From positions 23,111,067 through 23,175,066 of the forward strand of contig CM026423.1 in NCBI GenBank assembly GCA_014871385.1: 64,000 bases of DNA, read 5' to 3'. Position 1 is the first letter of the stretch; every line of letters starts with the position of its first letter. A program made the translations under genes and the position numbers. The notes under the pieces are model-generated. The model searched no databases and had not been told where the DNA came from. It saw only the letters and a program-made list of their open reading frames with translations. Origin of the DNA: Ceratodon purpureus (taxonomy: Eukaryota; Streptophyta; Bryopsida; Pseudoditrichales; Ditrichaceae). Of this stretch, positions 982-29,439 are shown one piece after another.

Positions 982-1209
982 GAGGGTAGCTTGTACGTGA
1001 GCGCAGAGCGCAGAGCGCAGAGCGCAGAGCGCAGAGCGCAGAGCGGTGAACGCAGATTTGGAGAGCGGAGAGCACAGAATGGGGGACAGAACCTAAAAAT
1101 AGCATTTTTTTACTAAAAATAAATTATAAAATTAGAAAATTCGAATATTCTTAAAATATTTTAAGAAATTTACTAATTTTAGTAATTTAATTGACCCTAT
1201 AACCGTGGA
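982..1209. repeat. MULE-A left terminal and subterminal repeats
   Basis: After the terminal GAGGGTAGCTTGTACGTGAG comes a run of about six GAGCGCA heptamers with degenerate variants (GAGCGGT, GAGCGGA) to about 1080. The motif GACCCTATAACCGTGGA follows at 1193-1209. The same arrangement, inverted, closes MULE-B at 12868-13075. Short subterminal repeats of this kind are usually transposase-binding sites in MULEs; that role here is inferred. Confidence 0.85.
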
Positions 1210-1977
1210 CTAATTACAGTATTTTCATTGAATTTGTAGTTCATATTATCTTTTCTTGGTGATTAATTTTTTAACGTGCACCTAGTACTATGCTCCAGCT
1301 CCTTCTAACTAGTTCAGGCATACAGTAATTCCCCTTATCTCCTTAAATTTATATGCAAATTACTACTTAAAATGTATTGGTATTGAACCTCTGAACAGGG
1401 ATCAAGTAACATTTAATTTCGTAACATTTTCTTAACATTGCTAGAATTCATCCAACATAGTCTACATGCCTTTCTCCTTTTTTAAATTTTTTTTTTTTTT
1501 TTGATATTTGTCTTGTATTTTTTATAAAATTTTCTTTATTCTATCTATCTTGTTAGAGGGGTCAAAAGCCTCCTTTCATTTAATTCTCTCCTTCATTTTA
1601 TTTTCACAATCATTTTATTTTCACATTCTTTTTGTTAATCTCCTTCATATTATTTTCATCCTTCATTTTAAATATTGCTATTCTTTACTTTAATATTTTT
1701 AATTTCAATTTATATAATTTGTTTTTTTTTTGTTTTTTTAATTTTTTTTCATTCTTTATTTTTAAAACAAAAATTTAAATACAAAATGACCTCTGCTAAA
1801 CCTTCATCTTTTTCAATTTGGTATAGGAGGATGACAACTTTTAAATGAATGAATAGCCGATTTTCAAGGGTGCCAAGCATCTTCTTCAAGGATATTTAAG
1901 ATAAGAGTAGGGAATGTCTCTGCCTCTTTTGTGTTGGTGTTATGTGAAGCTCTTTTCCGTAGTGCGGGACAGCAGCT

Positions 1978-2430
1978 ATGGAAGACGTCAGAGATATTGT
2001 TGTTTCACTTGCTGACGATGTTTGTCCATTTGAACCATATGTTGAGGTGGAGGACGAAGAAGAGGTGATGGCCAACAGCCAAGTGCGTCCTTCGACAACG
2101 GATGCTGACGTCCAACCGGATGTAAGAGCTGACCCTCCACGTTCAGAAAATTCGGATGAAATCATAGTGCTAGAGAAGGACGCAGATGTGCCTTTGCAAC
2201 CACATGCATACTCGAAGGTTGGAAAGATCCCAAGGGGAACCTATTCCAGGGAATCAGTTAATCGGAGGCGCGGAGGTGGGCCATTGCTGAAACGTTCATA
2301 CCAAGGATACGCTCCAAGTGTGAGAACGAAAGTGAATGCGAATGTAGTTTGTCCTGTAGTACAGTCAGCGGCTGGCAGTCCTGTTGATAGTGTAGTGGGC
2401 AACCCTAAACGTGTTAGGTTCGAAGATTGA
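1978..2430 (+). CDS. MULE family small protein 1 (150 aa, unknown function)
   Basis: Starts with ATG (MEDVRDIVVSLADD). I do not recognise a domain. The N-terminal half is acidic (a run of D and E around residues 20-35), followed by a basic, glycine-containing middle (NRRRGGGPLLKRSYQ) and a basic end (NPKRVRFED). It lies about 1 kb inside the left terminus, tail-to-tail with the transposase (stop at 2682). A clearly related copy sits at the same distance from the same type of end in MULE-B (12162-11709), with the start, basic block and C-terminus conserved although that copy is frameshifted. Conservation over two divergent copies supports a real gene. Size, charge and position suggest a DNA- or protein-binding accessory factor. 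The whole ORF lies inside the long conserved end region (982 to about 2612). Confidence 0.7.
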   Translation: MEDVRDIVVSLADDVCPFEPYVEVEDEEEVMANSQVRPSTTDADVQPDVRADPPRSENSDEIIVLEKDADVPLQPHAYSKVGKIPRGTYSRESVNRRRGGGPLLKRSYQGYAPSVRTKVNANVVCPVVQSAAGSPVDSVVGNPKRVRFED

Positions 2431-2681
2431 GACATCTAATAACAAGTATATGTTTGCTGTAATAAAAGATAAATGTCAGGGGATACGAAGTATATAGTGC
2501 ACTTGTTCAAGATAGATTGTATTGAAATAGAATGCAATTAATGTGAACGACAAAGCCTTTATAATGAAAAAGTCAATACAGCTTCTATATTGCTGACTTA
2601 GTACATGGGATATTACTAAAATCATTCACTACGTGACAAATGGCCATTGTGGAAATGGCAGTTCTAAAGTAGGAGGGCTAC

Positions 2682-4768
2682 CTACTTCTTCGCCAAGGGG
2701 TGACGCAAGATTCCACTCTCTAAGAGTAGCTTGACCTCGTTGAAGCTGAAGGTAGGCGCATGGATGAAAAGCTCCGCTTCGGGATCACGGTTGCAGACCT
2801 TCAAGAGTATGTAGTATAGGTGCTTACAATACGTGAACAGAGTCTTGCCACGGAACGTAGTCATTGTCTTCTTGAATGCTGGGCAAGTGCAACCAGGGTA
2901 AGAACTGATGGTAATCTGGTACCGTGTGATGTGTGGAGCGACGCCCGAATCCAGCCCAATGATGCAACCGTGGCCCGGCTCAGGTATCATGGTGACGGAA
3001 CGGAGGCGCGCTTTAAGAGATTCGGAGGAGCCCATGGAGAGTCGCTGCGCTTGATTGGGACGAGTGGCAATGCGCTTCACCATCTTGCCGTCTCTCTTGC
3101 CTGGGTAGCGGTCAGCGTCTGCAGGGACTGGCACCGAGTTGAGATTTGCAGGGGGCGGGGCAGAAGTGAACAGGCGTCTTGGGGAGACCGGTTTCTTCGG
3201 CGGAAGTTGAAAGCCCGCTGCTTCGAGGGCAAGAATCTCACTGAGTTTTAGGTTAGTACCAAGTTTCACTAGCCACACCTCTGGGATGGAGGGGAATTCC
3301 TGGTCCTTTGAGTAGTGTGCTACCCACTTGCGCTTAGAGCCTTTCACGCAGCGCTCAATATCATCAGAGCAGAAGAAGAACTCTGTCTTCTCCACTAGGT
3401 TCCTGCGATAGTTAGTCCACAGTCCAGTGTAGGTCGGGGCAGCTGTGCAATGGGGCCCCCTGACAATTCTCTCAGTGCACTTCTTCTTCGTTTCAGCTCT
3501 TTGGGCCCAGCAGCACTTCGCAGAAAGTTTGTGAAGTCTCGAAATGTGCCACTCCTTCACGTCCACCTTAGTTTCTTCAACCGCGTTGACATGGCGAATG
3601 CCGCCCTTGTTCACTGGTGAAGGTAAAGGGGAATCAACTTCCTGGGCAGGAGGTTGGGTACCTTCTACCTCCGGGTCGTGTTCGGAGTCGTCTTCCACAA
3701 TGACGGGCATCTGCATAGGGCGAGCCCTGACGGCACGTCTTGGGCCTCTTGGGCGTGAGAATTTGGTCTTATCCGGGCGATGAGACTCTTCGTCAGCTCC
3801 GATAAGGACGTCGGCTTTTCGCTTCTGTGAACCGAAGACTTCCGCTCCTGGCATAATAGGCTGACGGGTGCAGAACTCATCCGCGCCTGGCATATCGAGC
3901 ATGGGCTTGTCGAGCAGTGTAGGATTTCCCCATTTCTTAGCGTTGCGTTCAGCCATCCGAAGCCTGAGTTCCTTCTTGGATGGTCCTGTTCCGCCGACGT
4001 CACCTTTGAGGAACTGGTAGTAGTTGACAACCTGTAGAAATGCCCGAACGAAATCGTCCACGGTCGCAACGTAGAGGTCGATCCCGTTGTTTCCTGAAGC
4101 TTGGAGCCACTTGTTGTGAACTGTTTCGGCGAGGTTACAGGTAGGCATCTCTGTGAGTTCTTCTTTCGTGAATTTCTGCAGGTTTGACAGTAGGTGCCGT
4201 TAGATTCACGGATTAGACTTTTGTAGGTTAGGGCTAGGAAACCAGTATGAAAAACATAAAAACAGAGTGCATAGAGAATACCTCGGTCATGAATCCCCCC
4301 CACTGGCGGAAGCGGTGGTGCCAGAATGACAGCCACTGATCGAGTTTGATGAGCCCGCTCTCGCCAACAACCCCGGTGGATGCCCACCATGCTCGCAACG
4401 CGTGGTACAGAGTTTCCGCCTCTGCCATGCTGGTCGCATTCTTGTACTGAGTGCACATCTTCTTGTGCTGTTCCCAGAGTTCTTCGGGGAAGTGCTTCTG
4501 CGTATACGCCACCATGTTCTGAGTCCAGTGGAACAAGCACGACCTCTCCCGGTCCTCCATTGGGTCCTCTTTGTTGCCATTGCCGTAAAGGATCCGCACT
4601 GCATTCCAATTGGCCTGTGCGTTATCCGCCATGAACCCCTTGAAGTTCGGCGCTGCAACGCCATTGATCTCCATGACCAGGTTCAGGTTTTTCCAGAAGA
4701 CGAGCTGGGCGTCCGTGTCCTCGGACTGCATGTCGCAAGTGGCGATTGTCATCACGCGGCAGTAGGTG
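2682..4768 (-). CDS. MULE transposase, C-terminal part (MULE-A)
   Basis: Two exons on the minus strand, 4768-4282 and 4175-2682, are joined by a 106-bp GT-AG intron that keeps the frame (...GGFMTE/KFTKEEL...). The first exon carries the MULE DDE core: CDMQ with the first Asp at 4732-4734, GFMADNAQANW with the second Asp at 4624-4626, and CLFHW, the C-x2-H signature of Mutator transposases. The second exon ends in a SWIM zinc finger (CTCPAF...YCKH), typical of MULE and FAR1-type proteins, preceded by a long basic and proline-rich linker. The 5' part of the gene is at 13076-14754, because MULE-B inserted between them (duplication at 4769-4778). With one duplication copy removed the coding length is 3660 nt, a multiple of three (about 1219 aa). 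The gene was therefore whole before the insertion and is now disrupted. Confidence 0.88.
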
Positions 4769-4778
4769 GCGTCGTACA
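4769..4778. repeat. 10-bp target-site duplication of MULE-B
   Basis: GCGTCGTACA occurs at 4769-4778 and again at 13076-13085, immediately outside the MULE-B termini. Both copies encode the same piece of the interrupted transposase (HVYDA), which shows that it is host-target sequence duplicated at insertion. Confidence 0.94.
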
Positions 4779-4897
4779 GGGGAAAGTTCGTACGTGAGCG
4801 GAGAGCGTAGAGCGGAGAGCGGTGAGCGCAGAATGGAGAGCACAGAATTGACAATTAGGAAAATTTTCAAAAGCAAAGTAGACCCTATAACCGTGGA
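4779..4897. repeat. MULE-B left terminal and subterminal repeats
   Basis: The terminus GGGGAAAGTTCGTACGTGAG is followed by GAGCGGA, GAGCGTA and GAGCGGT heptamers to about 4850, then GACCCTATAACCGTGGA at 4881-4897. The inverted equivalent closes MULE-A (25801-25858 continued at 29384-29439). Confidence 0.85.
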
Positions 4898-5536
4898 AAA
4901 TTACTAAATTAAGGCTTGATTTTGACACTTTTTTTAGGAAAAGAGTATATTACCGTGGAAATTAGGGTTATCTCTGGTAAGAATTTATTACGTTTGTTCT
5001 CTAAGATACAAATTAGGGCTGATGTCATGATGACGTCATGCATACATTCCTTTAGATTTGTCATGGGTTTAGGCAAGATACAATGATCAGGCGTTGAGTT
5101 TTAGATCAAACAAATAATTCTTTCATAGGATTATGTAAATGCACAAGGAAAAAAACAAATTTGAAAGAACGTAAAGGAGGCAAGGTTTGAAAACTTCCTG
5201 GAATATTTCAAAATTCGTGTATAATATCTTAACTGCTGAAACCAAGATATACCTTGTTAGAGTCCTTGTCTTCATTGAAGATTACTCTGTCTTCCTAGGC
5301 AGCGAAGCATCTTCATTTGAGTGATACAAGTAGGAGATTTTCATCATGAAACAGCACTTGGTGAGCTGGGTTCCAGAGATGGAGGTCACTCTTGGTTTCT
5401 TGAGTTTGTTTCTAGGTGGCGTATTAGGATAGTGACACAGTCCTTGGCATTCTGTGCTGTATGCGAAGGTAGCGTAGGAGTTCGGGGGGGTCAATGTGCA
5501 AGCTTGCATGGAACGTTTTAAGACTACAACAATTTA

Positions 5537-6434
5537 GTGTGTTGCGCGATGCCGAAGGTATGTAATGCAAGATCGAGGAGGACGAGAGCGGCTGTAGGTT
5601 TGCCCCCAAAGGCACCGGCGAGTTATCAGGAGCTGCGGCCTTGGCTGTTGGAGGTGGAGCGCGCCAGAGAACGAGGGATGGACCTGCCACCGTTTAGGCA
5701 CATCGGAAGCCTCCATGTTGGTGAAGGTGAATGGCGTTGGACAGTGCTTTGTACCAATGAGCTTCTCCGTATTATGGAGTTGTCCCTAATCCCGTATCCC
5801 TTGCTATTGAACGTCGATGAGAATCCAGTTGTTCAGCTGCCCGAAGTGATCATATCGGATGGCGAAACTTGCTGGTTTGATATCGACAAGAGTTGTACTT
5901 ACTAGGGAGTTGTTTGAAGGTATGGGCGATTCATTTGAGGTCGTTGCCTGTGAAACGATTTTACAGGATTTGCTTAAGCTGATGGCGGATGGACCTAACC
6001 CCTGGGATCATATAGGTAGTAGTGCAACGCAGGGTTGGACTCCTCCGATGGTAATCACGTTTGAAGACGTCGAGAGTGCTCGTGCTGTGTCAAAGAGGTG
6101 GAAGCGTGAGATTGACAGCAGTCCTGAATATGCATGCCTTCGGCTAGCAAGGTGGGATTACTTTTCGTACGAGGGTCGCCATTGGAGTCCGAAGGACGAA
6201 TACGAAGTTAATCGGTTCAACATCAACTGGAGTGTTTTTAGGAGTTCTTGGAAACTTGCAAATCCAATTAACAACGAGAGGTTAGAGATAGCCTTCCTTG
6301 GAGAACTGAGTTGCGTTGAGTTAGATCAGTTGAGGTCATTGCTATTGGCCAATGGGAATCAGGTCTTAGATGTCCCGGAAGGAGAGAAAATTTCTTCGAG
6401 AGATGGTATCTGGATCTCTCCCAAGAATAGGTAA
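5537..6434 (+). pseudogene. MULE family small protein 2, two-part copy in MULE-B
   Basis: The first frame (5537-5905, 122 aa, starting MCCAMPKVCNARSRRTRAAV) closely matches the 127-aa ORF at 25161-24778 in MULE-A up to the residues GETCWFD. A second overlapping frame (open from 5859, reading to 6434) carries a downstream half (FEVVACETILQDLLKLMADG ... PPMVITFEDVESA) that is absent from MULE-A. A relic of that downstream half survives at 54277-54095, so it belonged to the ancestral gene. The two halves are either linked by a splice I cannot place or separated by a frameshift. I recognise no domain; the first half is basic at its start and then looks globular. Confidence 0.6.
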
Positions 6435-6485
6435 CATGGCTATGGGTTAGGGTGAGATTTTGAATGATTAAGAAAGTAATTACAG

Positions 6486-6487
<2 letters not shown>

Positions 6488-6557
<70 letters not shown>
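6488..6557. repeat. (AT)n microsatellite
   Basis: About 35 uninterrupted AT units between the end of small protein 2 and the methyltransferase remnant in MULE-B. The equivalent spot in MULE-A (about 24.5 kb) lacks it. Confidence 0.98.
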
Positions 6558-6560
<3 letters not shown>

Positions 6561-6781
6561 TGAGCATTTCAGTTTTAACATTTCATTGTTCATGTTACAT
6601 GTTGAGCATTACAGATGTGACATTTCATCCTTTACATACACAGATACGAACAGGACAAGATAATCATAACAAGTTTAGGTTGTTTGCAGTAGAGAAGACG
6701 AAGTAATATGCAATAAAACTCCAATTAAATCAAATCAAATCAAATGAAAACAACGATAGACCGAAGCCTCCTTCAAACTCA

Positions 6782-8360
6782 CAACATGCTACAATCGCTA
6801 CTTTCACTCTCAGAATCCGATGACTGAGAATCTCCTTCTACAGCCTCTTCATCGACAAATAGAAGGGCCCTGGGATCAAAAGTAGTTGGCCGCCTAGGAA
6901 CATATGTAAGAGCTCCGGATTGCAACGCTTGTGCTAAGCCCTCTGCATAATCCGGAAGTATATAAGGCAGAATCGGACTGGAATGAAGACGCCACGATGG
7001 AATGGAGACGGGTCTTGGCCTACGTGGCGGTGTCGCCTCAACTACTCTGCAAGAGTAAATCGAGGGTGGTAAGAAGAAGTGCGTGAAGATGGAATCAGTA
7101 AAGAAGCAAAGAGAACTAGCCCAGAAGTAAGAAAATGTAGAGAACTTACAGTACTTATATCGTCTTGCTCTCTTCGGAGGTGCATCTTCAACTGCTGCCG
7201 GTCTAGGATGTTTTGGAGGGCCCATGGCAGATGACGAAGCCATATACGGTTTGAGAAGGGCGTTGAATATGCCTTCGTCCTCCTCACAAGCTATAATATG
7301 ACGACCAATACTCTGGCAAGCCTTAAGGGAGGCACTTGAAAACACGTAGCACAGGAAAGAAGTGAGTCCCTGTGGAGAAATTCAGAGGATTGGAAATGAA
7401 GAATTTGTTTATGGAGGATTACCTGTTCCTGCCGACCACTCGAAGACTATGTCACCGGGCTTGGTCATCTTCTCAATTATGCCCTGCATCATCTCAAGGG
7501 CTTTCTCCCTTGGGCCTCTCCACGGCACCTCCCCATTCATGTGCTGCGATTCCACATCGGTGAAGTTGAGAATGGCATCACTCTCGGTAATGTGGAGGTC
7601 GTTGTAAACGACATCGGATTTCTTCGTTTGAAAAGAGAACTTGGATGGGGGATGAGCACCACGAATGAAGACGCGCACCCCGAATCGAAGAGACTGCGAG
7701 ATACAAAAATATGTGAGTATAATTAAAAAGAAAACTTAGTAGAATGCAAAGACAAGGAAAGATTATGATGTACATACCAAGGAGCCGGACATCGTAGGGT
7801 GAGCCAAGCCTAGTGCATTGAAGCCCCACCAGTCTCGGTTCTGCACGAAGCCATCAAGAGCAGCCACTTCAGAAATCTTCGAAGCCAGACCTTGGTCGTT
7901 GTTGTGGATGATGCAGAGAGCACCATCATACTGCAAGAAATGTCTTGCAAATTCGAAGAGTTCCTCCAAATACTCCTTACCGCGATTGTTCCAAGACGGA
8001 GCGACGTAGGGTGGATTGGGTATCGTGGGGACCGGAAGATTCTCAAGAATGTCGGCAATGATCGAGTCGAATCCCAAGTGATTATGATGTTTGCATCTAT
8101 CAGGAACTCGGTTCTCGCGGCCTGCTCCAAACTTGAGTAAACAAGAAAACAGAGTTAGAAATTATAAGGCTTATAGTAATAAAAGTATTCAAGGGAAAGC
8201 ACGAAACAACGGATCATACCATTCGAATAATGTCTAGAGCCTTGTTCCATTCGGGATCGCCACCAACGTCTTCAAGTTCCTTGTGTCGGGATAGAACCGA
8301 ATCCACAGAGGAGTTGATGACACAAACCACAACCTCGACAAGGCTCTCATTCAGGTGAGC
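6782..8360 (-). pseudogene. 5'-truncated ParB/methyltransferase gene in MULE-B
   Basis: Minus-strand exons at about 8360-8222, 8140-7763, 7678-7420, 7345-7154 and 7047-6782 match the last five exons of the MULE-A gene (22.8-24.3 kb), with introns at the same places. Conserved stretches include IIAD at motif IV, the DWWG..ALGL block, [25 protein letters not shown] at motif I and the acidic serine-rich tail. The CTD-like, ParB-like and central parts are missing, because the gene is fused directly to the palindrome array at about 8365. The copy is clearly diverged from MULE-A, roughly 65-75% identical at protein level by eye. Without a promoter or start it is unlikely to make a working protein. 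Confidence 0.85.
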
Positions 8361-8369
8361 CTTCGCCTT

Positions 8370-9500
8370 AAAAACTTATATTAAATCCCCAAAACCATTG
8401 CAAGGCCCCCGGCCTACTGTCGTCTACCCGACAGTAGGCTTGGGGCCATTTATTTTGAAAAAATAAAAAGAAAACAACAATAAAGAAGCGGAGAAAACCT
8501 CAAAAATATTCAGATTTTTATTCATATTTTGTGAGCATAATTCATTTATATAACACAAATTGTCAAAGAAAAAATAAATAAAAAAACTTTGCAAAAATCC
8601 CCAAATGCTCACCCATGCCCACGGCCTACTGTCGGCAACGACAGCAGGCTTGGAGATTTTTTAATTTTTCAAAATATCAAAAAAAAAACCAATAAATTAC
8701 ATATACTTCATAAAAAATATGCAGATTTTTATTAATATTTTGTGAGCATAATTCATTTATATAACACAAATTGTCAAAGAAAAAATAAATAAAAAAACTT
8801 TGCAGAAATCCCCAAATGCTCACCCATGCCCACGGCCTACTGTCGGCAACGACAGTAGGCTTGGGGATTTTTTAATTTTTCAAAATATCAAAAATAAAAC
8901 CAATAAATTACATATACTTCATAAAAAATATGCAGATTTTTATTAATATTTTGTGAGTATAATTCATTTATATAATACAAATTGTCAAAGAAAAAATAAA
9001 TAAAACAACTTTGCAAGAATCCCCAAATTCATACCCATGCCCTCGGCCTACTGTCGTTGACGACAGTAGGTTTGGGGTTTTTTCATTTTTGAAAATAACA
9101 AAAAAATAATAATAAAATACGTAAATTCATCCAAAATATTGAGTTTTTTATTAATATTTTGTGAGCAATCATGCATTAATATAACACAAAATGTCAAAAA
9201 CAAAAAACACAAACAAACTTGGCGAAAATCCCCAAATCCATTGCCATGCCCTCGGCCTACTGTCGTTGACGACAGTAGGTTTGGGGTTTTTTCATTTTTG
9301 AAAATAACAAAAAAATAATAATAAAATACGTAAATTCATCAAAAATATTCAGATTATTATTAATATTTTGTGAGCAATCATGCATTAATATAACACAAAA
9401 TGTCAAAAAAAAAAACACAAACAAACTTGGCGAAAATCCCCAAATCCATTGCCATGCCCTCGGCCTACTGTCGTTGACGACAGTAGGCTTGGGGCTAAGC
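8370..9500. repeat. Palindrome-bearing tandem array, MULE-B (six monomers)
   Basis: Six AT-rich monomers, each with one GC-richer palindrome at 8412, 8624, 8835, 9047, 9256 and 9464 (spacing 208-212 bp). The palindrome arms are CCTACTGTCGT and ACGACAGTAGG around a two-base centre. The first three are slightly imperfect and the last three match the MULE-A form. Each is flanked by CCCCAAA or CTTGGGG runs. In MULE-B the array directly abuts the truncated methyltransferase gene. Confidence 0.95.
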
Positions 9501-9654
9501 AAATCCACCGAGGAAAGGGCCCTTGACCAGCGCGGGTCAAGGTAGTGGACACTCTAACAAGCCAGCGGTATAGGGCAGACGAGTATTCTCTCTAACCCCA
9601 CAGGAGAATGTACGACGGTTTCCGGAGCCCGTCGTAACTGTGATGAATGAACTT
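9501..9654. other. Start of MULE-B unique segment, no gene seen
   Basis: GC-richer than the array before it and without a counterpart in MULE-A. It leads into the tRNA-like repeats and holds no reading frame I can support. Confidence 0.5.
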
Positions 9655-9915
9655 GCCAGGCTAAATCGTTTGATTGCGATTCGGGAGGTCGGAAGTTCGA
9701 ATCCCGGCGGTAACTTTTGGAATCTTCGGGTGTGATCCTGGATGTCGGGAGTTCGAATCTCCATGGTGACCTATAGAATTTTTGGGTGTGGATCTGGAGG
9801 TCGAGAGTTCGAATCCCCGTGGTGACTTATGGAATTTTTGGGTGTGGATTATGGAATTTTTAGGTGTGGATTTGGAGGTCGGGAGTTCGAATCCCTGTGG
9901 TGACTTTTGAAGACT
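9655..9915 (+). repeat. tRNA-like (B-box) tandem repeats, possible SINE relic
   Basis: Four units of about 56 bp, each with a T-arm/B-box-like core (AGTTCGAATCCC and variants) at about 9691, 9749, 9805 and 9884, followed by a variant of GGTGACTTATGGAATTTTTG. Before the first unit, about 9665-9690 resembles a tRNA anticodon arm (GTTTGATTGCGATT), so the first unit may be the head of a tRNA-derived SINE. I cannot fold a complete tRNA, so no tRNA gene is called. Confidence 0.5.
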
Positions 9916-11520
9916 AATGGAATTTTTGGGTGGTTTACTTGAGAGCATGGACCATTTGTTATTTTGCAAAGTAAAACGTTTGCAAAAGATTTTTCTTTGC
10001 GAGGAAGAGGCTGAAGATATGGCTAAAGGCGAGTTTTAACGTCGGTTCAGTTGCGCGAGTTCAATGACATTGTCTAATTCCAAATCCTGGAGGACCGTTC
10101 AGCTATAGAACATGGAAGAGAAACACAGACACAGTGGTTCAAAGACTCATTCTGAAACAATCATAAGATCATTTCAATATTTTCTACACATGCAATGTCT
10201 TCCTTAGTTTGTATTCAATAAGCAATCCTGATTTTTAACGTTTTACCTTCAATCTATAATGATCAGAGCGCCACCTCCATGAGCTCAAAGATATAGCATT
10301 GAATTTGACTTAAAATTCTCCAATCTCCCCCATACTCTACAAACCATCAAATAAGATCGACAAGCTGTATACGGTATCCAATAGCAAGCATGCACTTCCA
10401 TGCAGATTTTGCAAGTATATCACATGTTGTTGCATCTCAAGGAACTGACGTTCCAAAGACCGTCCTTTGGAATACATGACAAGCATAAAATGTGATGAAA
10501 ATCTTTAGGCTAGTATCCAATTAATTCAGACACAACGATACTTGGATCTCCATAGCCATGACCAACACAAATACCGAGCATCTCATATGGATGCTTGCTT
10601 CCTGATAGATACTTTGAGTCTGTACATCAGATCAGTTCAAAGCTTAAAACGTTACTTTAAATGTTACTTTAAATAAGAAAATTCCTCCTTCAAGCTCCTT
10701 AGGAGCTGCCCATTCAAAGAAAGGCTCTATCATTGATGTGAACTAAAATATGGTAGTTCAAGCCTTTAAGCCTCAAGATTATCAGAGCATGACGAGCTTC
10801 AAGGTGGTTGGAATATCACCAGCTTTTAAGGTAGCAGCACCAGAAACCATCGCAGCTTTCTGAGCCTTTTTGCTGGTTGAATGGCACAGTTGGTGTGGAA
10901 AAATACACAAAGGTTGGGTAATCATAGAGAATATGGTTTTTAGAAATTTAATTTTTTGTGAATTTTACCAATCTAAAATCAAAAGTTCTAATAAATGGTG
11001 ATAGGAGGGTGCTAGAGTTATTTCTAAGTGAACCAGAAACCAAGAAAGAGTCTTGTTGATTAAAGCTACTTACATACATCCACTTGTTGCTTTAGGTTGC
11101 TTCCATTTATTAGTGCACCTACGTTGACCAGTTAGTCCTTTTGGGTTATAACTTATTGGGTACTCTTATCTAATGCACCATAACCACATCATTAGATAAG
11201 TCGTTCTACTAGTTACCCTCCAAAAAAAATTTGTCTTTTCTTTTTGGGAAATAAAAGGTTCATTCTTCAAAAACAAACTTGATTTTGAAACGATTGAATA
11301 TTCTCAAAATAAGTAGATCACTAAATTACATGTCATTAATATGGGTTCCACTCACCTAAGCAATGGCCCTCATTGACACACGAAACTGAGAATGATATGA
11401 AAGAAATGAAGAAAATAAAGGGAAAGTAATATGAAAGTTAAAATTAAATGAAAGAATTCTTTCGACTGCATTAACAATTTAGATAGAATAAAGGAAGTTA
11501 ATAAAAAATACAAGATAATT
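9916..11520. other. MULE-B segment without counterpart in MULE-A
   Basis: About 1.6 kb of mixed AT-rich DNA between the tRNA-like repeats and the conserved right end. It has no long reading frame. Short exon-like open stretches on the minus strand at 10510-10900 are listed separately; otherwise I see nothing coding. Confidence 0.6.
10510..10900 (-). pseudogene. Possible captured host-gene fragment inside MULE-B
   Basis: Two short protein-like stretches lie on the minus strand. One runs from about 10900 to its stop at 10782-10784 (reading CHSTSKKAQKAAMVSGAATL onward). The other runs from 10620 to its stop at 10510-10512 (YLSGSKHPYEML then GICVGHGYGDPSIVVSELIG), with a possible acceptor CAG just before it and AT-rich 3'-UTR-like sequence after it. 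MULEs are known to pick up host gene pieces (Pack-MULEs), and this is the only part of MULE-B lacking a counterpart in MULE-A. I do not recognise the protein and the exon structure is uncertain. Confidence 0.3.
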
Positions 11521-11708
11521 ATATAATATCCCATGTACTAAGTCAGCAATACACAAGCTGTATTGACTTTTTCATTATAAAGGCTTTGTCGTTCACATTA
11601 ATTGCATTCTATTTCAATACAATCTATCTTGAACAAGTGCACTATAAACCTCGTATCCCCTGACATGTACCCTTTATTACAGCCAAGATATACTTGTTAT
11701 TAGACGTC

Positions 11709-12867: not shown

Positions 12868-13075
12868 TCCACGGTTATAGGGTCAATTAAATTACTAAAA
12901 TTAGTAAATTTCCAAAAATACACTAAGAATATTCGAATCTTCTAATTTTATAATTTATTTTTAGTAAAAAAAGTGTTATTTTAAGGTTCTCTCCCCCATT
13001 CTGTGCTCTCCGCTCTCCAAATCTGCGCTCACCGCTCTCCGCTCTGCGCTCTGCGCTCACGTACAAGCTACCCTC
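12868..13075. repeat. MULE-B right terminal and subterminal repeats
   Basis: Inverted counterpart of 982-1209: the conserved GACCCTATAACCGTGGA motif (as its complement, 12868-12884), then GAGCGCA-type heptamers as their complement, ending at 13075 with the complement of GAGGGTAGCTTGTACG. Similarity to the MULE-A left end continues inward to about 11523, matching 982-2612. Confidence 0.88.
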
Positions 13076-15747: not shown

Positions 15748-15926
15748 CTGAATTGTTTTGTTTAAATAAATTCAGTAGAAGCATTCGTAACAGAAAAAAC
15801 TAAATCGATTTGGGAAAATTACATAAGTGCGTAATGACTCAGGGTTGTGTATTTTTGAAACAATGTGCGTAGAGTAACCTGAGGATAAGGGTAGTAGGGG
15901 AATCGAGTAAGGGTTTAGTTGGAGAA

Positions 15927-19577: not shown

Positions 19578-22500
19578 GACGTTGATGGTGATCATCTTGG
19601 GAGCGAACGTCAAGACCCTACGCCAGCAGAAACTGAGGTATTTCATTCAATCTACAATTTATATTCTTTTTTTCTGTTCATGATTTTCAATTCTATTCGC
19701 CCTCTTCCCTTCTTTGTTTCCTACTCTTTTAATTATGGAAGTTAATCCTTTCTTCATTTCTCCTACTCTAGGTATCATCCGGACCTCCTGAGATGTCCGC
19801 CACCTCTCCCATTTCTGTGATCAATGTTTCCGATCTATCGGATTCATTTGATCAGCCTTATTGTACCTGTGATGTAGCCAACCCTGTAGGTGTGGAAAGT
19901 GGACCTCTCGAGGTCCACTCTCCTCAGTACATGCCTACCTCGCCAGTGTACATGCCTACCTCTCCAGTGTACATGCCTACATCCCCGGTTTATGAGCCAA
20001 CCTCCCCGGGCTATATGCCCACGTCTCCTCCACAGGGCTCCCCGCCGATGTCTCCACCCTCTCCTTCCTCGCCGATTAGAGTCAGGAGGCCAGCCCATGT
20101 GGTCTTTGCTCTGCCGGCAATTCTGCCGTGCCCTGTCCAACAGACCAGGCGATTTTGGAGGAGGCGCTGTCACTGGAACTGTAGACAGTCTAAGGAGTAC
20201 TATAGTCGATCCTCACGTAGATAGTTTTATCAATCACAGATGATGATTGAGTTGTTAAAAGAGAGATGACAGTATGAAGATATATTGTTACTTTCTTTTA
20301 CATACTTGTCAACTTTGCATGACTTTCTTCGATTGTGCTTGTTCTCCTAATTTGCGTACCTTCTGGCAGGTTACGCAAACACAAGATGTGTTGGTGAAAC
20401 CATCTTGTCCGTTAAACTTGAAGACTGCCACAGAAGGGGAATTGGAACATCAAACCAAATACAAGGTGGACACCAACGCCGTCATCAACAAGCTCAGGAT
20501 CAAGCCATCGCAGAAGTCCCGTATGTCGGTGCCCCTGTGCAGGATGATCCCAATGGCAAAGGTCAGACCAGTGGGCGAAGTGGGTGTGCAGCATTTGGAG
20601 CGGGAGTTCGTCAAGGGGTATAGAGATGGCGACCGCGTCATGTACATCTCTATGTACAACAACGAGGAGCAGACACGAGATGTTACGGATGAGGTCATGG
20701 CTAAATGGAGCCCATTGTGGAGGGACGCGAATGATGCATTTGAATCTGAGCTTCTAAGTGACGAGGACTGGTCGCAATTCTCGGGGAAGATGTTTTTTGT
20801 CTGGGAAGGTAACCATCGCCTCTCAGCATGGCTTCGTCATATCAACAAGCATCATGCAGACGACCCGTCATGGCACATATCTGTGAACTGCATAGTACTC
20901 GATCCCCGTGGCCATGTTGGCAATCTTCTTCACGCAATGCATGACATCAACTGGTAAGTACTTGTTTCTTTTTTCCTGTTTTTCTTTTGTTACTTTATCT
21001 CATCTCTTTTATTCATCATACGGATTTTGGTTCATTTTCAGGTCGACTGAGAATGACCACGTCAAGAGTAATCTCCCTGCAAAACTATTTCGAATCCGCT
21101 CTTTCGGAATTATGAAGCTGGAGGAATTCAAAGACCTCCTCAGTCTTGAAGAGTATGACGCATGTTTGAAGAACAAGCCACCTAATCCCTCCTGGTTTCC
21201 CTTGACAACTAAAATTTTCATCGCATTTTTGTACCGAGTAAGTCCTACCTCCTCTCTCTATTTGCTTCTTATTATTCAATACTCATGAAATTTCCTAAGT
21301 CTGAATTCTCTTTCTACAGCGGGAACTCGCTGCGGCCTCTGATGAAGCAGCCAATGCCTACCGCATGAAGACACCCGAGGATGAGCAGTCTGCAAGTGCA
21401 GTTTGGGATGTCATGAATGAGGCATCAGAGAGAATGGTCGAAGCCATCAAGAAGAAGGACTTTACCAAGTACTTGGCCATTGCAAATCCCAAGAATGGTG
21501 ACGACTTCCTCAACGAGGTGACTCACTGATCATTGTTCAATTCACTGTTTCGCATGACTTCCATAATTTCTGTAAATATCTTTTTCAAACTTCGGTGCTT
21601 CTTGCAGATTAATCGCCATTTCAGTCTCAACAATAAGCCTGAGATGTCAGTGGATAAGCTTCAGAAGATTGTTCCTGCGGCCGTTGAGGCCAAATACAAG
21701 GCTCGTTGGTTGAAGTGGTGGAACTCATCCCCGAGTGCTCGAACGTCTTACAGATTTCTGCCATCTGAATTCAAGGACACCGAATTCGACCCATGGTTGA
21801 ACAAAGCTTCATTCTGGGCTGGGGTAATTTTCATAAAAAATCCATTCCAATTCCTTGTTCCTTTAAATTTTTACCATATTCATTCTTCGATGCTACTTCT
21901 ATGAATTTTGTATTACAGTTGGAGGAAGCCGTCATCCACGAAGTCGAGGACGTATTCAAGTCTGAGAACCTCGATATCAATTGGATGGCATTTCCTGATG
22001 TCCAACAGCCGGGCGATTTTGTCGAGAGTTCACGTATTCTCTTGTGGGACAAGGCCTTCCCTACGTTTATTGGAAAAAAAGCTGAGAAGCACTTCGACAA
22101 GAAGTCCAACTTCGCTAAATTCCCGGGAACCGCTCAAGTTGTCAAGCGGGTTACTTACCGGTACATTACCTTACTTAATCTCATTTCCATTTCATAGTTT
22201 TCTTTGTAATTGTTTTTTATACTTACCTCCTTCTTGTCTTCCCATAGGTACTTCAAGCGAGAGCTTGTTTTGAAGGTGGCCATCAGCGTTCAGCACCTCC
22301 CCAAGTACTTCAAGCTTTGGACGCAGACATCCTCGGACGAGTGTATGTACTCTCCTCAGCAGATAAAAAGGTACAAACCTGCTCACCTGGATGCTGGATG
22401 CTGGTATCTTGATTGTATTGGTGGTTTCACTATTGACTCCGAGGCGGAAGTCAAGATGCTGCACGATGGGGGTACGGTTGTGGTGGAGGACTCCGTGGAT

Positions 22501-24323
22501 GATGCAGAAGGTCGTGAAGGAGAGCAGGATCAGTCTTCTGCTCCACCACCGAAGAGAGGGAGAGGAAGGCGACTGAAACCTCTGCGTTCTCGGTCAGAGG
22601 CATCACAGCAAACTGGTGCGGAGTCTTCCGCGCCAGCTGACAAGGCACCAGAGCCGTCTCCGGGTGTTGTCGTTACCAACCCTTCTCCAGCTTCTTCGCC
22701 GGCTCCTTCATCGATCAGTGCTTCGGAGATCACCAGAGGTCTCCTTCAGCAGAGGAAGGCCAAAATATATCCTCAAACAACTTCTTCCGCTGGAGCTTCG
22801 ATTTCCACACATGTTTCCGTCTTCAACTCATCTGTGGATTCCATGTTACGGCGAAATAGGAGACAGGAGAGAAAAGGTGGCGACCCGGATTGGATCAAGG
22901 CTCAAGACTTCATTCGCAAGGTTTGTTCCTATATTTTGACATTTGATGGATTCTGCCACCTCTACTCGCTATGTAGTTACTAACTCTCCTTTCTTGTTTC
23001 CTCAAGTTTGGAGCAGGCCGCGAAAACATAGTTAAGGACCGGTGCAAACAAGAGGACCATCTGGGAGTCGACTTGATCATTGCCGACATCCCTGAGAATC
23101 TTCCCGTCCCATCCGTTTCCGTTCCCCCCACGAGTATTCCGCCTTGGAACTCTCGCTACAAGGAGTATTTGTACGACATCTTCCGTTTTGCAGATGATTT
23201 CCTGCAGAAAGATGGTGCCATCTGCCTCATCTACAACACTGTTCAGAAGCTGGCTAAGGATATCGACGAAGAAGCTGCTGCTGGTGACTACGTGCTCTTC
23301 AAGGACTGGTGGGGCGTCAATGTTCTCGGCCTCACTTCTCCTACGAACCCCGAGAACTTGGTACTTTTCCTAAACATACCCTACTCTTTACTTACTGTTA
23401 ACCCTTCCGCTTAATTCTATTCACTACTTTTGCTTGACTGCAGACTATGCGGTTCTGGATTCGCGTTTACGTTCGTAGTGGCAGTACTTTCTCCTTCCAG
23501 ACGAAGAAGGAAGATCTGATACATGGGCTCCTCAACATTACCGAGAGTGATGCCATTTTCAACCTCACCGATCTGGACTCGCAGCTCATGAATGGGGAGG
23601 TGCCGTGGAGAGGCCCAAGGGAGAAATCCCCTGAGATGATGCAGGGCATAATTGAGGAGCTGTCAAAGCCCGGCGACATAGTCCTTGATTGGAATGCTGG
23701 GACAGGTAACTCTTCTTACATATCTCTACTTAATTATTCCTCTCGTTTTTCCCACAGTTTCTTATTTCTTTGTTTCTCTCCGAGTTTCAGGGGCCTTCAT
23801 CAAGGCCGCTCAGGCTGTTGGTCGTCACATTCTCGCTTTTGAGGATGACGAAGCCATATTCAACGCCCTTCTCAAACCATCCGCCATGGGTCCTCCTAAA
23901 CATCCAAGGCCGGCAGCAGCAGGCGAAGCGCCTCCAAAGAGAGCAAGACCTGACAAGTGGTGTAAGTCTTCTATTCTTTGTTCAAATTATCCAATCATTA
24001 CTTCTCTTTCCAGCTCTACGTACTCTATCTAACCACAATCGGTTCTCTATTGCAGAGTAGTTTCAGCAACACCGCCACGTGGGCCAACATCAGTGTCCAC
24101 TCCATCCTGGCGTCTTCATTCCAGCCCGATTCAGCCTTTCATTCTTCCGGACTACGCAGAGGACTTAGCACAGGCGTTTCAATCTGGAGCCCTATCATAT
24201 GTCCCTAGTCGGCCAACTACTTTTGATCCCAGGGCCCTTCTATTCGTCGATGACGAGGCGGTAGAAGGAGATTCAGAGTCATCTAGTTCTGAGAGTGGAA
24301 GTAGCGATGGTAGCATGTTCTGA
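19578..24323 (+). CDS. CTD-like / ParB-like / beta-class DNA methyltransferase-like fusion gene (intron-rich, MULE-A cargo)
   Basis: Supported exons: 19578-19637, 19772 to about 20.1 kb (3' end unresolved), 20370-20953, 21042-21237, 21320-21517, 21608-21823, 21919-22160, 22248-22920, 23007-23360, 23444-23705, 23791-23961, 24058-24323. All introns are short GT-AG introns, and from 20370 to the stop the exons total 3162 nt in one frame (1053 aa). The second exon carries five heptads at 19928-20032 (YMPTSPV x3, [14 protein letters not shown]). Residues about 50-195 (counted from 20370) resemble a ParB/sulfiredoxin domain ([13 protein letters not shown]). Residues about 500-660 are basic, serine/proline-rich and probably disordered ([17 protein letters not shown]). 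Residues about 720-945 follow the beta-class order of amino-methyltransferases: motif IV strand VDLIIAD first, then motif X and I ([14 protein letters not shown]) and acidic motif II (AFEDDEAIF). The catalytic tetrapeptide reads DIPE where DPPY/NPPY is usual, so activity is doubtful. N-terminal exons may be missing from this model. Confidence 0.82.
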
Positions 24324-24777: not shown

Positions 24778-25161
24778 CTAATCCTTCGGAGGATATACAG
24801 TCCAACTCTTGTCCATATCAAACCAGCAAGTTTCGCCATCCGATATGATCACTTCGGGCAGCTGAACAACTGGATTCTCATCGACGTTCGATAGCAAGGG
24901 ATACGGGATTAGGGACAACTCCATAATACGGAGAAGCTCATTGGTACAAAGCACTGTCCAACGCCATTCACCTTCACCAACATGGAGGCTTCCGATGTGC
25001 CTAAACGGTGGCAGGTCCATGCCTCGATCCCTGGCGCGCTCCACCTCCAGCAGCCACGGCCGCAGCTCCTCATAACTCGCCGGTGCCTTTGGGGGCAAAC
25101 CTACAGCCGCTCTCGTCCTCCTGGATCTCGCATTACACACCTTCGGCATCGCGCAACACAC
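24778..25161 (-). CDS. MULE family small protein 2 (127 aa, unknown function)
   Basis: ATG at 25161 (MCCAMPKVCNARSRRTRAAV). The basic, cysteine-containing start is followed by a probably globular region (WLLEVERARDRGMDLPPFRH, GEGEWRWTVLCTNELLRIME) and ends SWTVYPPKD. The first 110 residues are about 95% identical to the MULE-B copy at 5537. The shorter C-terminus here replaces a longer one in MULE-B. It lies about 0.7 kb inside the right MULE end and converges with the methyltransferase gene. No known domain is recognised; its end-proximal placement mirrors small protein 1 at the other end. Confidence 0.65.
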   Translation of the reverse strand: MCCAMPKVCNARSRRTRAAVGLPPKAPASYEELRPWLLEVERARDRGMDLPPFRHIGSLHVGEGEWRWTVLCTNELLRIMELSLIPYPLLSNVDENPVVQLPEVIISDGETCWFDMDKSWTVYPPKD

Positions 25162-25800
25162 TGAATTCTTGTAGTCTTCAAACGTTACACTCTAGCTTGT
25201 AGATTGACATCCCGGAACTCCTACGCTACCTTCGCATACAGCACAGAATGCCAAGGTCTGTGTCACTATCCTAATACGCCTCCTAGAGACAAGCTCAAGA
25301 AACCAAGAGTGACCTCCTTCTCTGGAACCCAGCTTACCAAGTGTTGTTTCATGATGAAAATCTCCTACTTGTATCACTCAAATGAAGATGCTTTGCTGCC
25401 TAGGAAGAGAGAGTAATCTTCGATGAAGACAAGGACTCTGACAAGGTATATCTTGGTTTCAGCAGTTAAGATAATATACACGAATTTTGAAATATTCCAG
25501 GAAGTTTTCAAACCTTGCCTCCTTTACGTTCTTTCAAATTTGTTTTTTCCCTTGTGCATTTACATAATCCTATGAAAGAATTATTTGTTTGATCTAAAAC
25601 TCAACGCCTGATCATTGTATCTTGCCTAAACCCATGACAAATCTAAAGGAATGTATGCATGACGTCAGCATGACATCAGCCCTAATTTGTATCTTTGAGA
25701 ACAAACGTAATAAACTCTTACCAGAGATAATCCTAATTTCCACGGTAATATACTCTTTTTCTAAAAAAAGTGTCACAATTAAGCCTTAATTTAGTAATTT

Positions 25801-25858: not shown

Positions 25859-26920
25859 TCTCCTGTAGCACGACGTGGTATCCGTATTCCTCCGGAAGGC
25901 ACTCAATTCACACTAAATACCCTCCAAAGTAAACCACTCCGTGTTCGTTCCCACGAAGACCTATAGTTTTCTTCCTTTTAGATTTTAACGGAAATCACCC
26001 CCAGTGTCCGACCGTACACCGTCTTACAGACGGTTGGACAAATCCGGTAGTTTTTGCCTCGTTCCTATTTTCCGGCTTTTTAGACTAGTGGCCGGTTCCC
26101 ACTGATCCGTCTATCCTTTCAAGTGGCTGGATTTTCCACCGTCCCGTGACTTATAGTGGCTGGACACCCCACTGTTCCTATCTACCACCCGGAAAGTGGA
26201 GTAATAATCCTTCCGTACGGCTATGGACCGGTCCGGATAACTACTCAGTACCGGTTACTGATACGGAAATCATACTACAATGACATCACCTTACGGCTGC
26301 TCGGTATTCTACCATACTATCTTCCTTCCGGATTGGTTCGCAGTAGGGCATCCGGCTTTTATCCCATCTACAGGAAGCGACCGGTCCGTTTCCGGATCCC
26401 GGTGTACACACGGCTCTCCGTGTCCTTGAGACTACCAGCCCTGCTGCAATACGTCTCTCCTTCCCTACGGGCTCCTTCCGGGACTGGAAACCGTCAACAC
26501 TCGACGCTTGACACCTCCCCAGTTTCTCCGGGCGCTCTCCTTACCTTCCTACTGTTCAACACTCCTCCGGAACACTACTGAAGACAATAGTACCACAAAC
26601 CATACGGCAACGGACCCGTCAGTAGCCGGTTGACACAACAAATCCAAAAGTATATTCTCAATTGCAACAACAAAACGGCGTACAAAAACAAGGCCCCGGC
26701 CTTGGGAAAACGTCTAACTTAAATACTAAAACCTATCGGTTCCTAAAGCGACCAAGTGGCCCACCGAGATCCAGAAATTCCGGATCTTGGATCCGGGAAT
26801 CCCGGACCGGTGGCCGCCTTCTATTCCTAGTTACTGCCGCTATCTATCCGGATTGGCAGCCGGGTGCACTGGAGCCCCATCGTTAGTCGCTGCCATTTTA
26901 TCCGGTCCTTATCCTAAAAC

Positions 26921-28789
26921 CTACTCTTTGTGCTTATCTAACCGGGGACTGTGCCGGGTTCCGTCCAACCGTTCCTTCTTCTGTGGCCGCTTCAGTTTCT
27001 TCAACGAAGGGCCTTCTTCCGGAGCCTCCGATGCTGACGGTTCGATGGACTTCCGGGATCGGTCTACTTGAACTGCCGGGGATGGAGATCGTGCCGCCAC
27101 CGGAACTGCGCTGAGATCCACCTGGAGCATTTCCGGAGATCCCTGTACCGGTATAAAATCTAACGGTGGTGGTCTCTGGTCCGGTTCCAAGGGAATGTTT
27201 CCTGGGTTAACAGTCTCGACTCCATCCAAGTTGGGTAGAGTGTGCAGACTGCTCAGGGTGTCCGGAATAGGATCCTCCAGCGGGTGTCCTATCTCCTGTT
27301 GGGCGGGCCGGATGGCCGACCGTATCGGAGAGGCTGGAGGTGGCACCGGTGCCGGTTCCCTGGTTGGGGACGGTGGTCTGGGATCCTCTTGATTTGCCGG
27401 TGGCCCTGATGACGGACCGGCCTCTGCGTAACCGAGGATTTCCACCAGGTTCTTCATCTGCGTCCAAGTGTCCTTCATCACCTGTGTCCGGTCGTGCATG
27501 AACTTTATAATATTCTTCGTAGTCGGATCCGGTTGACGGGTCAGGAAAGCCTGGTAAACGGCGCACTGATTGGCCACATCTACCGGAAGAGCTAAAGTGG
27601 CCTTGATCTCGGCGACCGACCGGATCGCCTCGACTGCCCGGTCACGGGCGTCAGTGAAATCCTTCCGGGCATCACGCACCTCCTCCTCGAGCTTCCGATT
27701 CGTCTCCCGGAACTTCGCCAGCCGGTCCATGTGCTTCTCCTGCAGACCGGCCAAGTCCCGGTGCTTGTGAAGAATGCTCAGGCAATCCTCCAACCGGTCC
27801 GAACCCGTAAGGATCATTACCTCCCTAGCCAACCGGCCCTCCGCCCTCCTAGTCGACTGTAAGAACCGGGCATATGTCGTTGCCTGCTCCGATAGGTTAA
27901 CTAAGTCCTGGTACGGATCTCCGGTGTGCTCCGGTGGTCCGGTGGGCTGTTGGATCTCCGTGTTCAGGGTTCGCTTGGCCGGTGCGGGAGTCCGAGGTGA
28001 TCCGGATGGCTGTCCCTTTTCCGGGCTAGGACGGGGTCTCTTAGCCGGCGTGGGGGAGACCTCAATAACATCATCCTCGTCGTCCTGGTCGGACACTTCT
28101 TCCGGCTCAGCGAACTGCTGATAGCTTAAGAGCATATCGTACTCCCGGACCTCTTCAGCACTTAACAGTCCCTTAGTACGGTAGAGGTGAATGAGGAAAG
28201 ACGGAAGGCAGGTGGCCTGCTTCTTGGTCTTCCGGAGATTGGCCACCTGTCGGTCGACTATCGTCTTCATCATGACCCCCCAGTCCACCGTGAATTCACC
28301 GATCATGGCCCCAATGAAAACGGACGCCCACTTGTTGGTGATCCGTTTGGGCTTTTCCGGATGGAAAATAGGGTTCATAAACCCTACTACTCTCCGGGCC
28401 TCCGGATCCGCAATGTCATCCAGCGTCCATCCTTCTCTCGGGTCTCCGGTCCCCTTGAGATACTGATGTACGAAGTCCCGGGGCTCCGGCGTCGAGACCT
28501 CGCCGCCGGAGTTCTTGAAACCATACGTCTCCCTCCAGAGTTGTGCCGTCCACTTATCCGGCTCTCCCCGGATGGTTCCTCGATTCTCGGGATTCTTGAC
28601 GAGGATCTCTTGGGCCGGAAGGGCAAGCTTCCAACCCCATGCCTTGTCCAGTAGGACCTCACACCCCATAGACTCTAAGGCGGTCCGGAGGAGCTCCTTC
28701 TCCTTCTCGCCGGCCGGTATCAACGGCATTACTCGTTGTACCCTGAACGACTGTCCTTCCGCCGCCGGTTCCTTCCCTTTCCTACCCAT
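26921..28789 (-). CDS. LTR-encoded ORF (622 aa), open in this solo LTR
   Basis: Starts MGRKGKEPAAEGQSF. Residues about 40-215 form a globular domain with the pattern ...KWASVFIGAMIGEFTVDWG...R...CLPSFLIHLYRTKGLL, reminiscent of the putative plant transposon protein domain (Pfam PF20167 type) found beside plant Ty3 elements; this assignment is by eye. A proline/serine linker follows (SPTPAKRPRPSPEKG), then a coiled-coil-like region (about 330-420) and a long proline-rich, acidic tail ending with basic clusters. It is in the sense direction of the retroelement and lies about 200 nt downstream of a TATA box, so it would be transcribed from any copy of this LTR. Its role is unknown. Confidence 0.75.
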   Translation of the reverse strand: MGRKGKEPAAEGQSFRVQRVMPLIPAGEKEKELLRTALESMGCEVLLDKAWGWKLALPAQEILVKNPENRGTIRGEPDKWTAQLWRETYGFKNSGGEVSTPEPRDFVHQYLKGTGDPREGWTLDDIADPEARRVVGFMNPIFHPEKPKRITNKWASVFIGAMIGEFTVDWGVMMKTIVDRQVANLRKTKKQATCLPSFLIHLYRTKGLLSAEEVREYDMLLSYQQFAEPEEVSDQDDEDDVIEVSPTPAKRPRPSPEKGQPSGSPRTPAPAKRTLNTEIQQPTGPPEHTGDPYQDLVNLSEQATTYARFLQSTRRAEGRLAREVMILTGSDRLEDCLSILHKHRDLAGLQEKHMDRLAKFRETNRKLEEEVRDARKDFTDARDRAVEAIRSVAEIKATLALPVDVANQCAVYQAFLTRQPDPTTKNIIKFMHDRTQVMKDTWTQMKNLVEILGYAEAGPSSGPPANQEDPRPPSPTREPAPVPPPASPIRSAIRPAQQEIGHPLEDPIPDTLSSLHTLPNLDGVETVNPGNIPLEPDQRPPPLDFIPVQGSPEMLQVDLSAVPVAARSPSPAVQVDRSRKSIEPSASEAPEEGPSLKKLKRPQKKERLDGTRHSPRLDKHKE

Positions 28790-28991
28790 TCTGCTAAGTC
28801 CTCCTCTCCGTCACTCCGGTAACACCTGCACGCACGATCCTCACCACAATCTCTCGCCTAACGGAAACACTTCCGTCTCACCGTCTCTCTCCTACCGTCT
28901 AACCCTAACTGCGCCCACCGCCTTAGAGCGCAAGGACCCGTCGTGCCACAAAATGACAAAGAGAAAGGAAGAACATGGCGGTTCTTCCTCC

Positions 28992-28998
28992 TTTTATA
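28992..28998 (-). promoter_or_regulatory. LTR TATA box (solo LTR)
   Basis: TATAAAA on the minus strand, about 380 bp from the 5' end of the LTR and about 200 bp upstream of the LTR ORF. It is conserved at 29786-29792, 48868-48874 and 63088-63094 in the other copies. Confidence 0.7.
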
Positions 28999-29383
28999 CC
29001 TGCCCTCGCGCCCACCCGTTCGTAGCTCATCATGACGGACGGTCGTAGCCCCTCATCATTGGACGGTCGCGACCGGCGGCGTTTTAATGGTTGCAGCCAT
29101 TATCCCCGTGTGCGTTGTACCTTTTGGTGGTTATCCTTAAGTCTGCCGGGTCAGGGCTTTGTCATATGGACTGTACCCGTCTCTCCTCCACCGCAGACGA
29201 CCGGATCTCACCCGGCTGGCCTTCCGGTCACTTATTTATTCAGCCGACCGGCTTAACCGGCTGTTCTACTTATAGGCTTAGTACTTCCGTATTTCTAACA
29301 TAAAATTTTTAATTTTTTTATCATTTTCCTACCGGAATTAGTATTCCGGTGTGTCAACCGTGGAAATCACTTTCCACATCTCC

Positions 29384-29439
29384 ATTCTGCGCTCACCGCT
29401 CTCCGCTCTACGCTCTCCGCTCACGTACGAACTTTCCCC
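29384..29439. repeat. MULE-A right terminus, outer piece
   Basis: Complement of the GAGCGGA/GAGCGTA heptamers and of the terminal GGGGAAAGTTCGTACG, ending at 29439 against the 10-bp duplication at 29440-29449. It continues 25858 across the solo LTR. Confidence 0.92.

Follow-up and report, generated by a model that had tools for sequence, protein, structure and literature searches.

The window analysed here, a 64,000-nucleotide stretch of Ceratodon purpureus contig CM026423.1, contains at positions 982-29439 a DNA transposon that carries a spliced gene for a methylase-like protein on the strand opposite to its transposase (Table 1). The element is genuine but composite. Its ends, at 982 and 29439, are bracketed by a perfect 10-bp target-site duplication (TSD), GTCCAGTAGG, at 972-981 (left copy) and 29440-29449 (right copy), and an unbroken GTCCAGTAGG site is seen at 28646-28655, in a related long terminal repeat (LTR) copy within the window. 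Its two tips, GAGGGTAGCTTGTACGTGAGCG and GGGGAAAGTTCGTACGTGAGCG, are in inverted orientation and continue inward as arrays of 7-bp units. A second element with both tips as in the outer one, in the opposite orientation and with its own 10-bp TSD (GCGTCGTACA), is inserted in the transposase gene of the outer element, while the right arm of the latter holds a solo LTR, which we read, from its open reading frames (ORFs), as possibly Gypsy-type. The initial annotation had described a giant Mutator-like element (MULE) with defined ends and 10-bp duplications; the ends and duplications are as described, and the element spans 28.5 kb as found, but its own length is 16.6 kb once the nested element and the solo LTR are taken out.

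In-silico removal of the inner element yields a single transposase frame across the old site which, with one 106-nt intron, encodes 1190 amino acids (aa; 14667 to 2682, minus strand). The transposase gave no match to the Pfam MULE profile PF10551, which is diagnostic of the superfamily without defining it, at E-values up to 5 and 10. For a SWIM zinc finger, a frequent though not invariable feature of MULEs, the Pfam score (E-value 0.15, 12 bits) is below the cut-off of 19.6, the CxC and CxH being present. A comparison profile for PF10551 was built from 30 prokaryotic proteins, taken from the best-matching loci in a search of 398 genomes, 96 of which had a match. The transposase core aligns to it in hhalign with a score of 29.1 and an E-value of 0.0037, at a probability of just 8.9%; 1 of 500 shuffles scored equally high, and scores were 12-17 for four further transposase segments and 13-20 for four segments of the methylase-like protein. 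The stretches ADNAQ, RSCLFHW and MPTCNLAETVHN are in register in this alignment, and the first D of the DDE core has no assigned position. We take the three stretches to be the second D, the CxxH and the TxN..E of the MULE core; a CxxH between the second D and the E is part of the DDE core of MULEs. The Mutator superfamily is characterised by TSDs of 8-11 bp and, in most groups, by terminal inverted repeats (PMC6446971), and both elements of the window have 10-bp TSDs and inverted tips. Because of these duplications and tips, together with the profile alignment of the core, membership in the Mutator superfamily is probable, short of proof. What remains of the annotated MULE transposase is thus a minus-strand transposase-like gene with the expected terminal anatomy and a modest profile alignment, but with no Pfam MULE match. 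No relatives of the transposase were found in viral contigs, and none of its core in plasmids.

The methylase-like gene lies on the plus strand and is interrupted by nine introns of 82-96 nt, all GT-AG, with the frame open through all of them; the acceptor of exon 11 was shifted by two bases so that the frame is kept. The protein has a prokaryote-type beta-class N6/N4 amino-methyltransferase domain. The Pfam family N6_N4_Mtase (PF01555) was matched at 2.3e-8 by the whole protein and at 1.1e-9 by the core (34.7 and 39.1 bits, above the curated cut-off of 26.7), DNA methyltransferases of PHROG at 9.5e-10, and the PDB entries of DpnA and CcrM at 0.0012 and 0.0079, respectively. The C-terminal 87 aa match orf48 of phage SfV (43% over 63 aa, 9e-9), and the whole 262-aa core gave weak matches to phages, with a best E-value of 4e-4 among the best 20 of 312 records. 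Neither the core nor the N-terminal half had relatives in viral contigs, and a query with the Blf4 fusion found none in the viral scan. An intron-rich, prokaryote-type methylase-like gene carried by the transposon and oriented oppositely to the transposase gene, as initially annotated, is therefore supported, including by the profile check of the spliced protein for its methyltransferase part.

A second profile was built from 59 prokaryotic ParB-methylase fusions, drawn from 93 matched proteins at 94 loci that were gathered partly by the DPPY pattern. In hhalign the whole domain aligned to it with a probability of 95.3% and an E-value of 2.1e-8, and 0 of 300 shuffles did as well. The stretch containing DIPEN is placed over ADITVCDPPYN, and VLDWNAGTG over VLDPFSGSG, so that the motif IV position precedes motif I in the beta layout that had been claimed, while DPPY is lost; the S-adenosylmethionine (SAM) motif I is retained together with the acidic residue that follows. 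Among the prokaryotic relatives, DPPYN is found at the aligned site in 58 of 59 and a [DNS]PP[YFW] string anywhere in 90 of 93, a contrast biased by the way the loci were collected; no such string occurs in the 1053 aa of the outer copy. HMMER alone favours a different motif IV spot (PPWN, further on), and the alignment of motif IV is hence not certain. In the truncated inner copy an NPPY string occurs 12 residues past the D of DILEN; its counterpart in the outer copy reads VPPT. Since DIPEN occupies the motif IV position and the outer protein has no catalytic string, it is classed as a relative of the methyltransferase fold, and the label of active methylase was dropped for this copy. With DIPE in place of the catalytic DPPY, methylation of DNA by the intact copy is doubtful, and so is the annotated role of marking or protecting the element's own DNA in this way.

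The ParB-like block of the initial annotation fared less well. The string GNHRLSAW is present in exon 2, but similarity to ParB is no better than in shuffled sequence: hhalign sets the 11-residue ParB-like string of this exon over VVDGHLRLKAA of the fusions with a score of 13.2 and a probability of 0.4%, the best of 60 shuffles reaching 18.1, and in HMMER the best spot for the fusion profile is elsewhere in the protein, with a negative score, shuffled sequences outscoring the ParB-like region. Searches of Pfam, PHROGs, NCBIfam and PDB, and tblastn against phages, gave no ParB match for the protein. AlphaFold, run on the single sequence of exon 2, gave a model with a predicted local distance difference test score (pLDDT) of 34.5, too poor for use. 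We take the N-terminus of the prokaryotic and phage fusions to be ParB-like, and the protein described here does not match that N-terminus. As the scores sit at the level of shuffled sequence and the library searches gave no match, an N-terminal ParB-like domain is possible rather than demonstrated. Downstream of the palindrome array described below, an ORF at 19793-20134 contains five tandem heptads with synonymous variation among the repeats; we take these to resemble the YSPTSPS of the carboxy-terminal domain (CTD) of RNA polymerase II. This ORF could represent exon 1 of the accessory gene; four in-phase donors, none of them a close match to GTAAGT, could link it to exon 2.

Both copies of the methylase-like gene in the window (2/2) lie inside elements with these termini. 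The inner element retains the tandem array but showed no match to either the transposase or exon 2 of the outer element; its copy of the gene is truncated, with exon 10 out of frame under the chosen splice sites. The comparison of the copies was made over 292 codons of exons 8, 9 and 11, leaving out exon 10, where the inner frame does not fit, and the piece of exon 7. The proportions of differing synonymous (pS) and non-synonymous (pN) sites are 0.353 and 0.198, with a dN/dS of 0.48 (bootstrap 0.35-0.67). Between the elements identity is 69-86% in exons, 57-65% in introns, 95.8% in the right arm and 88% in the left arm. These values, a dN/dS of this size and exons better conserved than introns, show that exons 8, 9 and 11 have been kept by purifying selection while the introns drifted.

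Both elements contain a tandem array with a 24-bp palindrome, CCTACTGTCGT-NN-ACGACAGTAGG, once per unit; a unit is about as long as nucleosome spacing. In the outer element the array separates the accessory gene from the transposase start (14667), the two genes being divergent. All 15 palindromes with at most two mismatches (10 outer, 5 inner) lie within the two arrays, and even with six mismatches allowed the rest of the window has none; likewise, all 30 window copies of the 9-mer half (CTACTGTCG/CGACAGTAG) fall inside the arrays. No exact copy of the pattern occurs in the viral collection. A column-by-column comparison of the two elements gives 96.8% identity over the 22 arm columns, against 60.4% over the full 235-column unit and 52.6% over the 152 columns lying away from the core, and the palindrome ranks top for conservation among 212 windows of 24 columns. 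It looks like a candidate binding site of a dimer, placed where both promoters could be served.

Table 1. Features of the transposon and its surroundings (positions in the window; nested parts are listed separately).
Feature	Position	Strand	Remarks
Outer element	982-29439	.	28,458 bp in the window; 16,631 bp once nested insertions are removed
Left tip with its 7-bp array (GAGCGCA)	982-1056	+	
Left-arm ORF, 150 aa	1978-2427	+	inner copy at 11712-12162, two frames, 83-86% aa
Transposase, last exon	2682-4175	-	SWIM-like CxC..CxH end
Transposase, part downstream of nested insertion	4282-4768	-	second D, CxxH
Nested inner element, same family, inverted	4779-13075	-	8297 bp; TSD GCGTCGTACA at 4769-4778 and 13076-13085
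Gene 3 (inner element)	5522-6434	+	up to 303 aa in two frames
Gene 3 relatives	24799-25176; 53881-54286	-; -	first is a fragment in the outer element
Inner copy of methylase-like gene, exons 8-11	6779-8131	-	8131-7778, 7693-7423, about 7344-7150, 7044-6779
Inner copy, piece of exon 7	8327-8220	-	
Inner tandem array	8372-9551	-	spacing 208-212 bp
Inner palindromes	8625, 8836, 9047, 9256, 9464	-	6-base-spacer variant at 8413
Transposase, first part	13076-14667	-	start codon at 14667
Outer tandem array	17035-19474	+	spacing 209-260 bp, mostly 209-242
Outer 24-bp palindromes	17184, 17394, 17605, 17815, 18075, 18284, 18494, 18746, 18988, 19230	+	
ORF with five YxPTSPx heptads	19793-20134	+	candidate first exon
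Methylase-like gene, exons 2-11	20370-24323	+	1053 aa, open throughout
Exons 2-6	20370-20953, 21042-21237, 21320-21517, 21608-21823, 21919-22160	+	
Exons 7-11	22248-22920, 23007-23360, 23444-23705, 23791-23961, 24058-24323	+	
Exon 2 with ParB-like string	20370-20953	+	not significant
Methyltransferase domain	23007-23961	+	exons 8-10; DIPEN at motif IV position, motif I DWNAGTG
Solo LTR (TG...CA), right arm of outer element	25864-29378	.	about 3.5 kb; TSD TCTCC both sides
Right tip of outer element	29379-29439	-	61/61 identical to the tip of the inner element

Several other ORFs accompany these genes. Gene 3, for which no family was found in Pfam or NCBIfam, is convergent with the methylase-like gene, and the 95.8%-identical right arms break off inside it (5899/24799), possibly at a recombination point. 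The left-arm ORF (region 1963-2427) gave no Pfam family. Two ORFs, 15217-15744 and 15873-16244 (plus strand), one basic and one acidic, are located between the transposase start and the array and may form a further gene; the former has no Pfam family above the cut-off. The solo LTR contains a long ORF, 26921-28810 (minus strand), of 629 aa in one copy; its relatives at 46800-48680 and 61020-62900 are each divided between two frames. A long ORF within an LTR is unusual. A third element considered at 50-58 kb was rejected, as remnants only are present; one of these, at 53958-54520, derives from the right arm of another related element (71-73% identity) and is devoid of recognisable tips. Rfam and tRNA scans of the window were empty.

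The interpretation to which we give a probability of about 0.4 is that the accessory protein reads the palindromes and so keeps the element active or unsilenced, its catalysis being doubtful; both the binding by this particular protein and the anti-silencing outcome are what we infer. On this view a Mutator-like DNA transposon has two divergent genes on opposite strands, for the transposase and for the accessory protein, the latter being a relative, encoded by a spliced gene, of prokaryotic beta-class amino-methyltransferases with a long N-terminal part, possibly a diverged ParB-like DNA-binding domain. As a dimer this protein would bind the palindromes, once per unit of about 210-240 bp between the genes, and would keep the region, including the transposase promoter, active or unsilenced, by analogy with VANC on the motif arrays of VANDAL elements; VANC is, to our knowledge, not a methyltransferase relative. 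Since DPPY is not conserved, the methyltransferase fold would probably serve as a module binding both DNA and SAM, or be an altered enzyme, rather than act as a conventional methylase of adenine or cytosine. The probabilities assigned to this reading and to its rivals overlap and do not sum to one.

Several points weigh against palindrome reading by the accessory protein. The ParB-like part, which would supply the DNA-binding domain, is at noise level, and the PF01555 match covers no more than the final third of the profile (positions 151-218 of 221). The evidence of selection is restricted to C-terminal exons, the N-terminal ones being missing from the inner copy. The sample consists of two element copies, both within one 64-kb window, and the two are mosaics, given right arms so much closer in sequence than the exons. 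The near flanks of the palindrome are intermediate in conservation (1.27-1.40 bits, against 1.94 for the arms). Finally, the reader of the palindrome could instead be the transposase or a factor of the host, or the palindrome could function as a transcribed hairpin, independently of the methylase-like protein. The position of the array between divergent genes is consistent with such another reader, as is the truncated inner copy, which retains its array without a complete accessory gene, although a non-autonomous copy would also retain sites for an accessory protein acting in trans; for an RNA hairpin, the few changes in the arms (at 8625, 8836 and 17815) are uncompensated, which argues weakly against it. 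We regard this explanation as somewhat unlikely.

That the protein is a working methyltransferase marking transposon DNA with N6-methyladenine or N4-methylcytosine, which is compatible with palindrome binding, appears unlikely. The retained SAM motif I and acidic residue and the NPPY of the inner copy speak for it, as do the opposite-strand layout and the protein size, which resemble those of the 1104-aa Sola1-1_Ec32 protein (PMC12477816). The alignment of DIPEN on DPPYN, the near-universal presence of the motif in the DPPY-biased set of relatives and its absence from the outer protein point the other way, and the inner NPPY aligns to VPPT of the outer copy. Decaying cargo is also conceivable: the transposon would have captured a methylase-like gene that plays no role in transposition, and the array would be an ordinary minisatellite. 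Mutator elements tend to pick up fragments of host genes (PMC6446971), and both the lost DPPY and the truncated inner copy with its misfitting exon 10 would be expected of a passenger. Yet dN/dS is below 1, exons are better conserved than introns, the outer gene is open at full length across nine introns, and conservation of the palindrome far exceeds that of the rest of the unit in both elements; we consider a mere passenger quite improbable. A bolder extension of palindrome reading by the accessory protein is a ParB/parS-like (centromere-like) eukaryotic cis-trans system in a transposon, in which an altered methyltransferase-fold protein, perhaps with a CTD-mimicking N-terminus, would load on palindromes at about nucleosome spacing and mark or open its own element and non-autonomous relatives; this we hold to be distinctly unlikely.

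As a kind, ParB-methyltransferase cargo of transposons is already published. The Ectocarpus element Sola1-1_Ec32 carries it with the same suggested role of self-marking, and green and red algal transposon cases are cited in that study (PMC12477816); the annotated idea of a methylase cargo for self-marking is thus upheld as to the gene being carried, but cargo and role were both in print. As in Ectocarpus, a large eukaryotic DNA transposon has an accessory gene opposite to the transposase strand, encoding about 1,050-1,100 aa with an N6/N4 methyltransferase domain and a claimed ParB-like part. Unlike in Ectocarpus, the transposase is Mutator-like with a 10-bp TSD rather than Sola, ParB is undetectable by profile, DPPY is lost in the intact copy, and there is a conserved palindrome array, none being mentioned in section 5 of PMC12477816. 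Passages of PMC12695648 and PMC6431247 contain no mention of ParB. Prokaryotic and phage ParB-methyltransferase fusions, such as that of Wolbachia phage WO (L005), share the beta-class domain (E-value 2.1e-8) but are about 400 aa long, encoded by a single uninterrupted ORF, with DPPY present.

The closest functional parallel, by analogy, may be VANC/VANDAL of Arabidopsis. VANC proteins of VANDAL Mutators are described as countering silencing via a short motif in tandem repeats, VANC21 binding YAGTATTAY in those of VANDAL21 (PMC5735166). Shared with the present case would be a Mutator element, an accessory gene and non-coding tandem repeats with a conserved short motif; the VANC motif is, however, a 9-mer and not a palindrome. 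A looser parallel is offered by retrotransposons with DNA methyltransferase (DNMT) genes in dinoflagellates and charophytes; these carry C5-cytosine enzymes, to which adenine enzymes are called structurally unrelated (PMC5890265).

Within the literature searched, three things are new: a Mutator-like context, DPPY lost from a copy whose C-terminal exons are under selection, and a tangible candidate for the cis-acting site. The Ectocarpus study names no target of transposon-borne ParB-methyltransferases, and their role there is a proposal (PMC12477816). With a strongly conserved palindrome next to the gene in two family members as a specific candidate target, the idea of binding to self DNA becomes directly testable. 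Should the loss of DPPY in a protein with selected C-terminal exons prove general, transposons would be employing an inactive or altered methylase of bacterial type as a factor for chromatin or DNA recognition.

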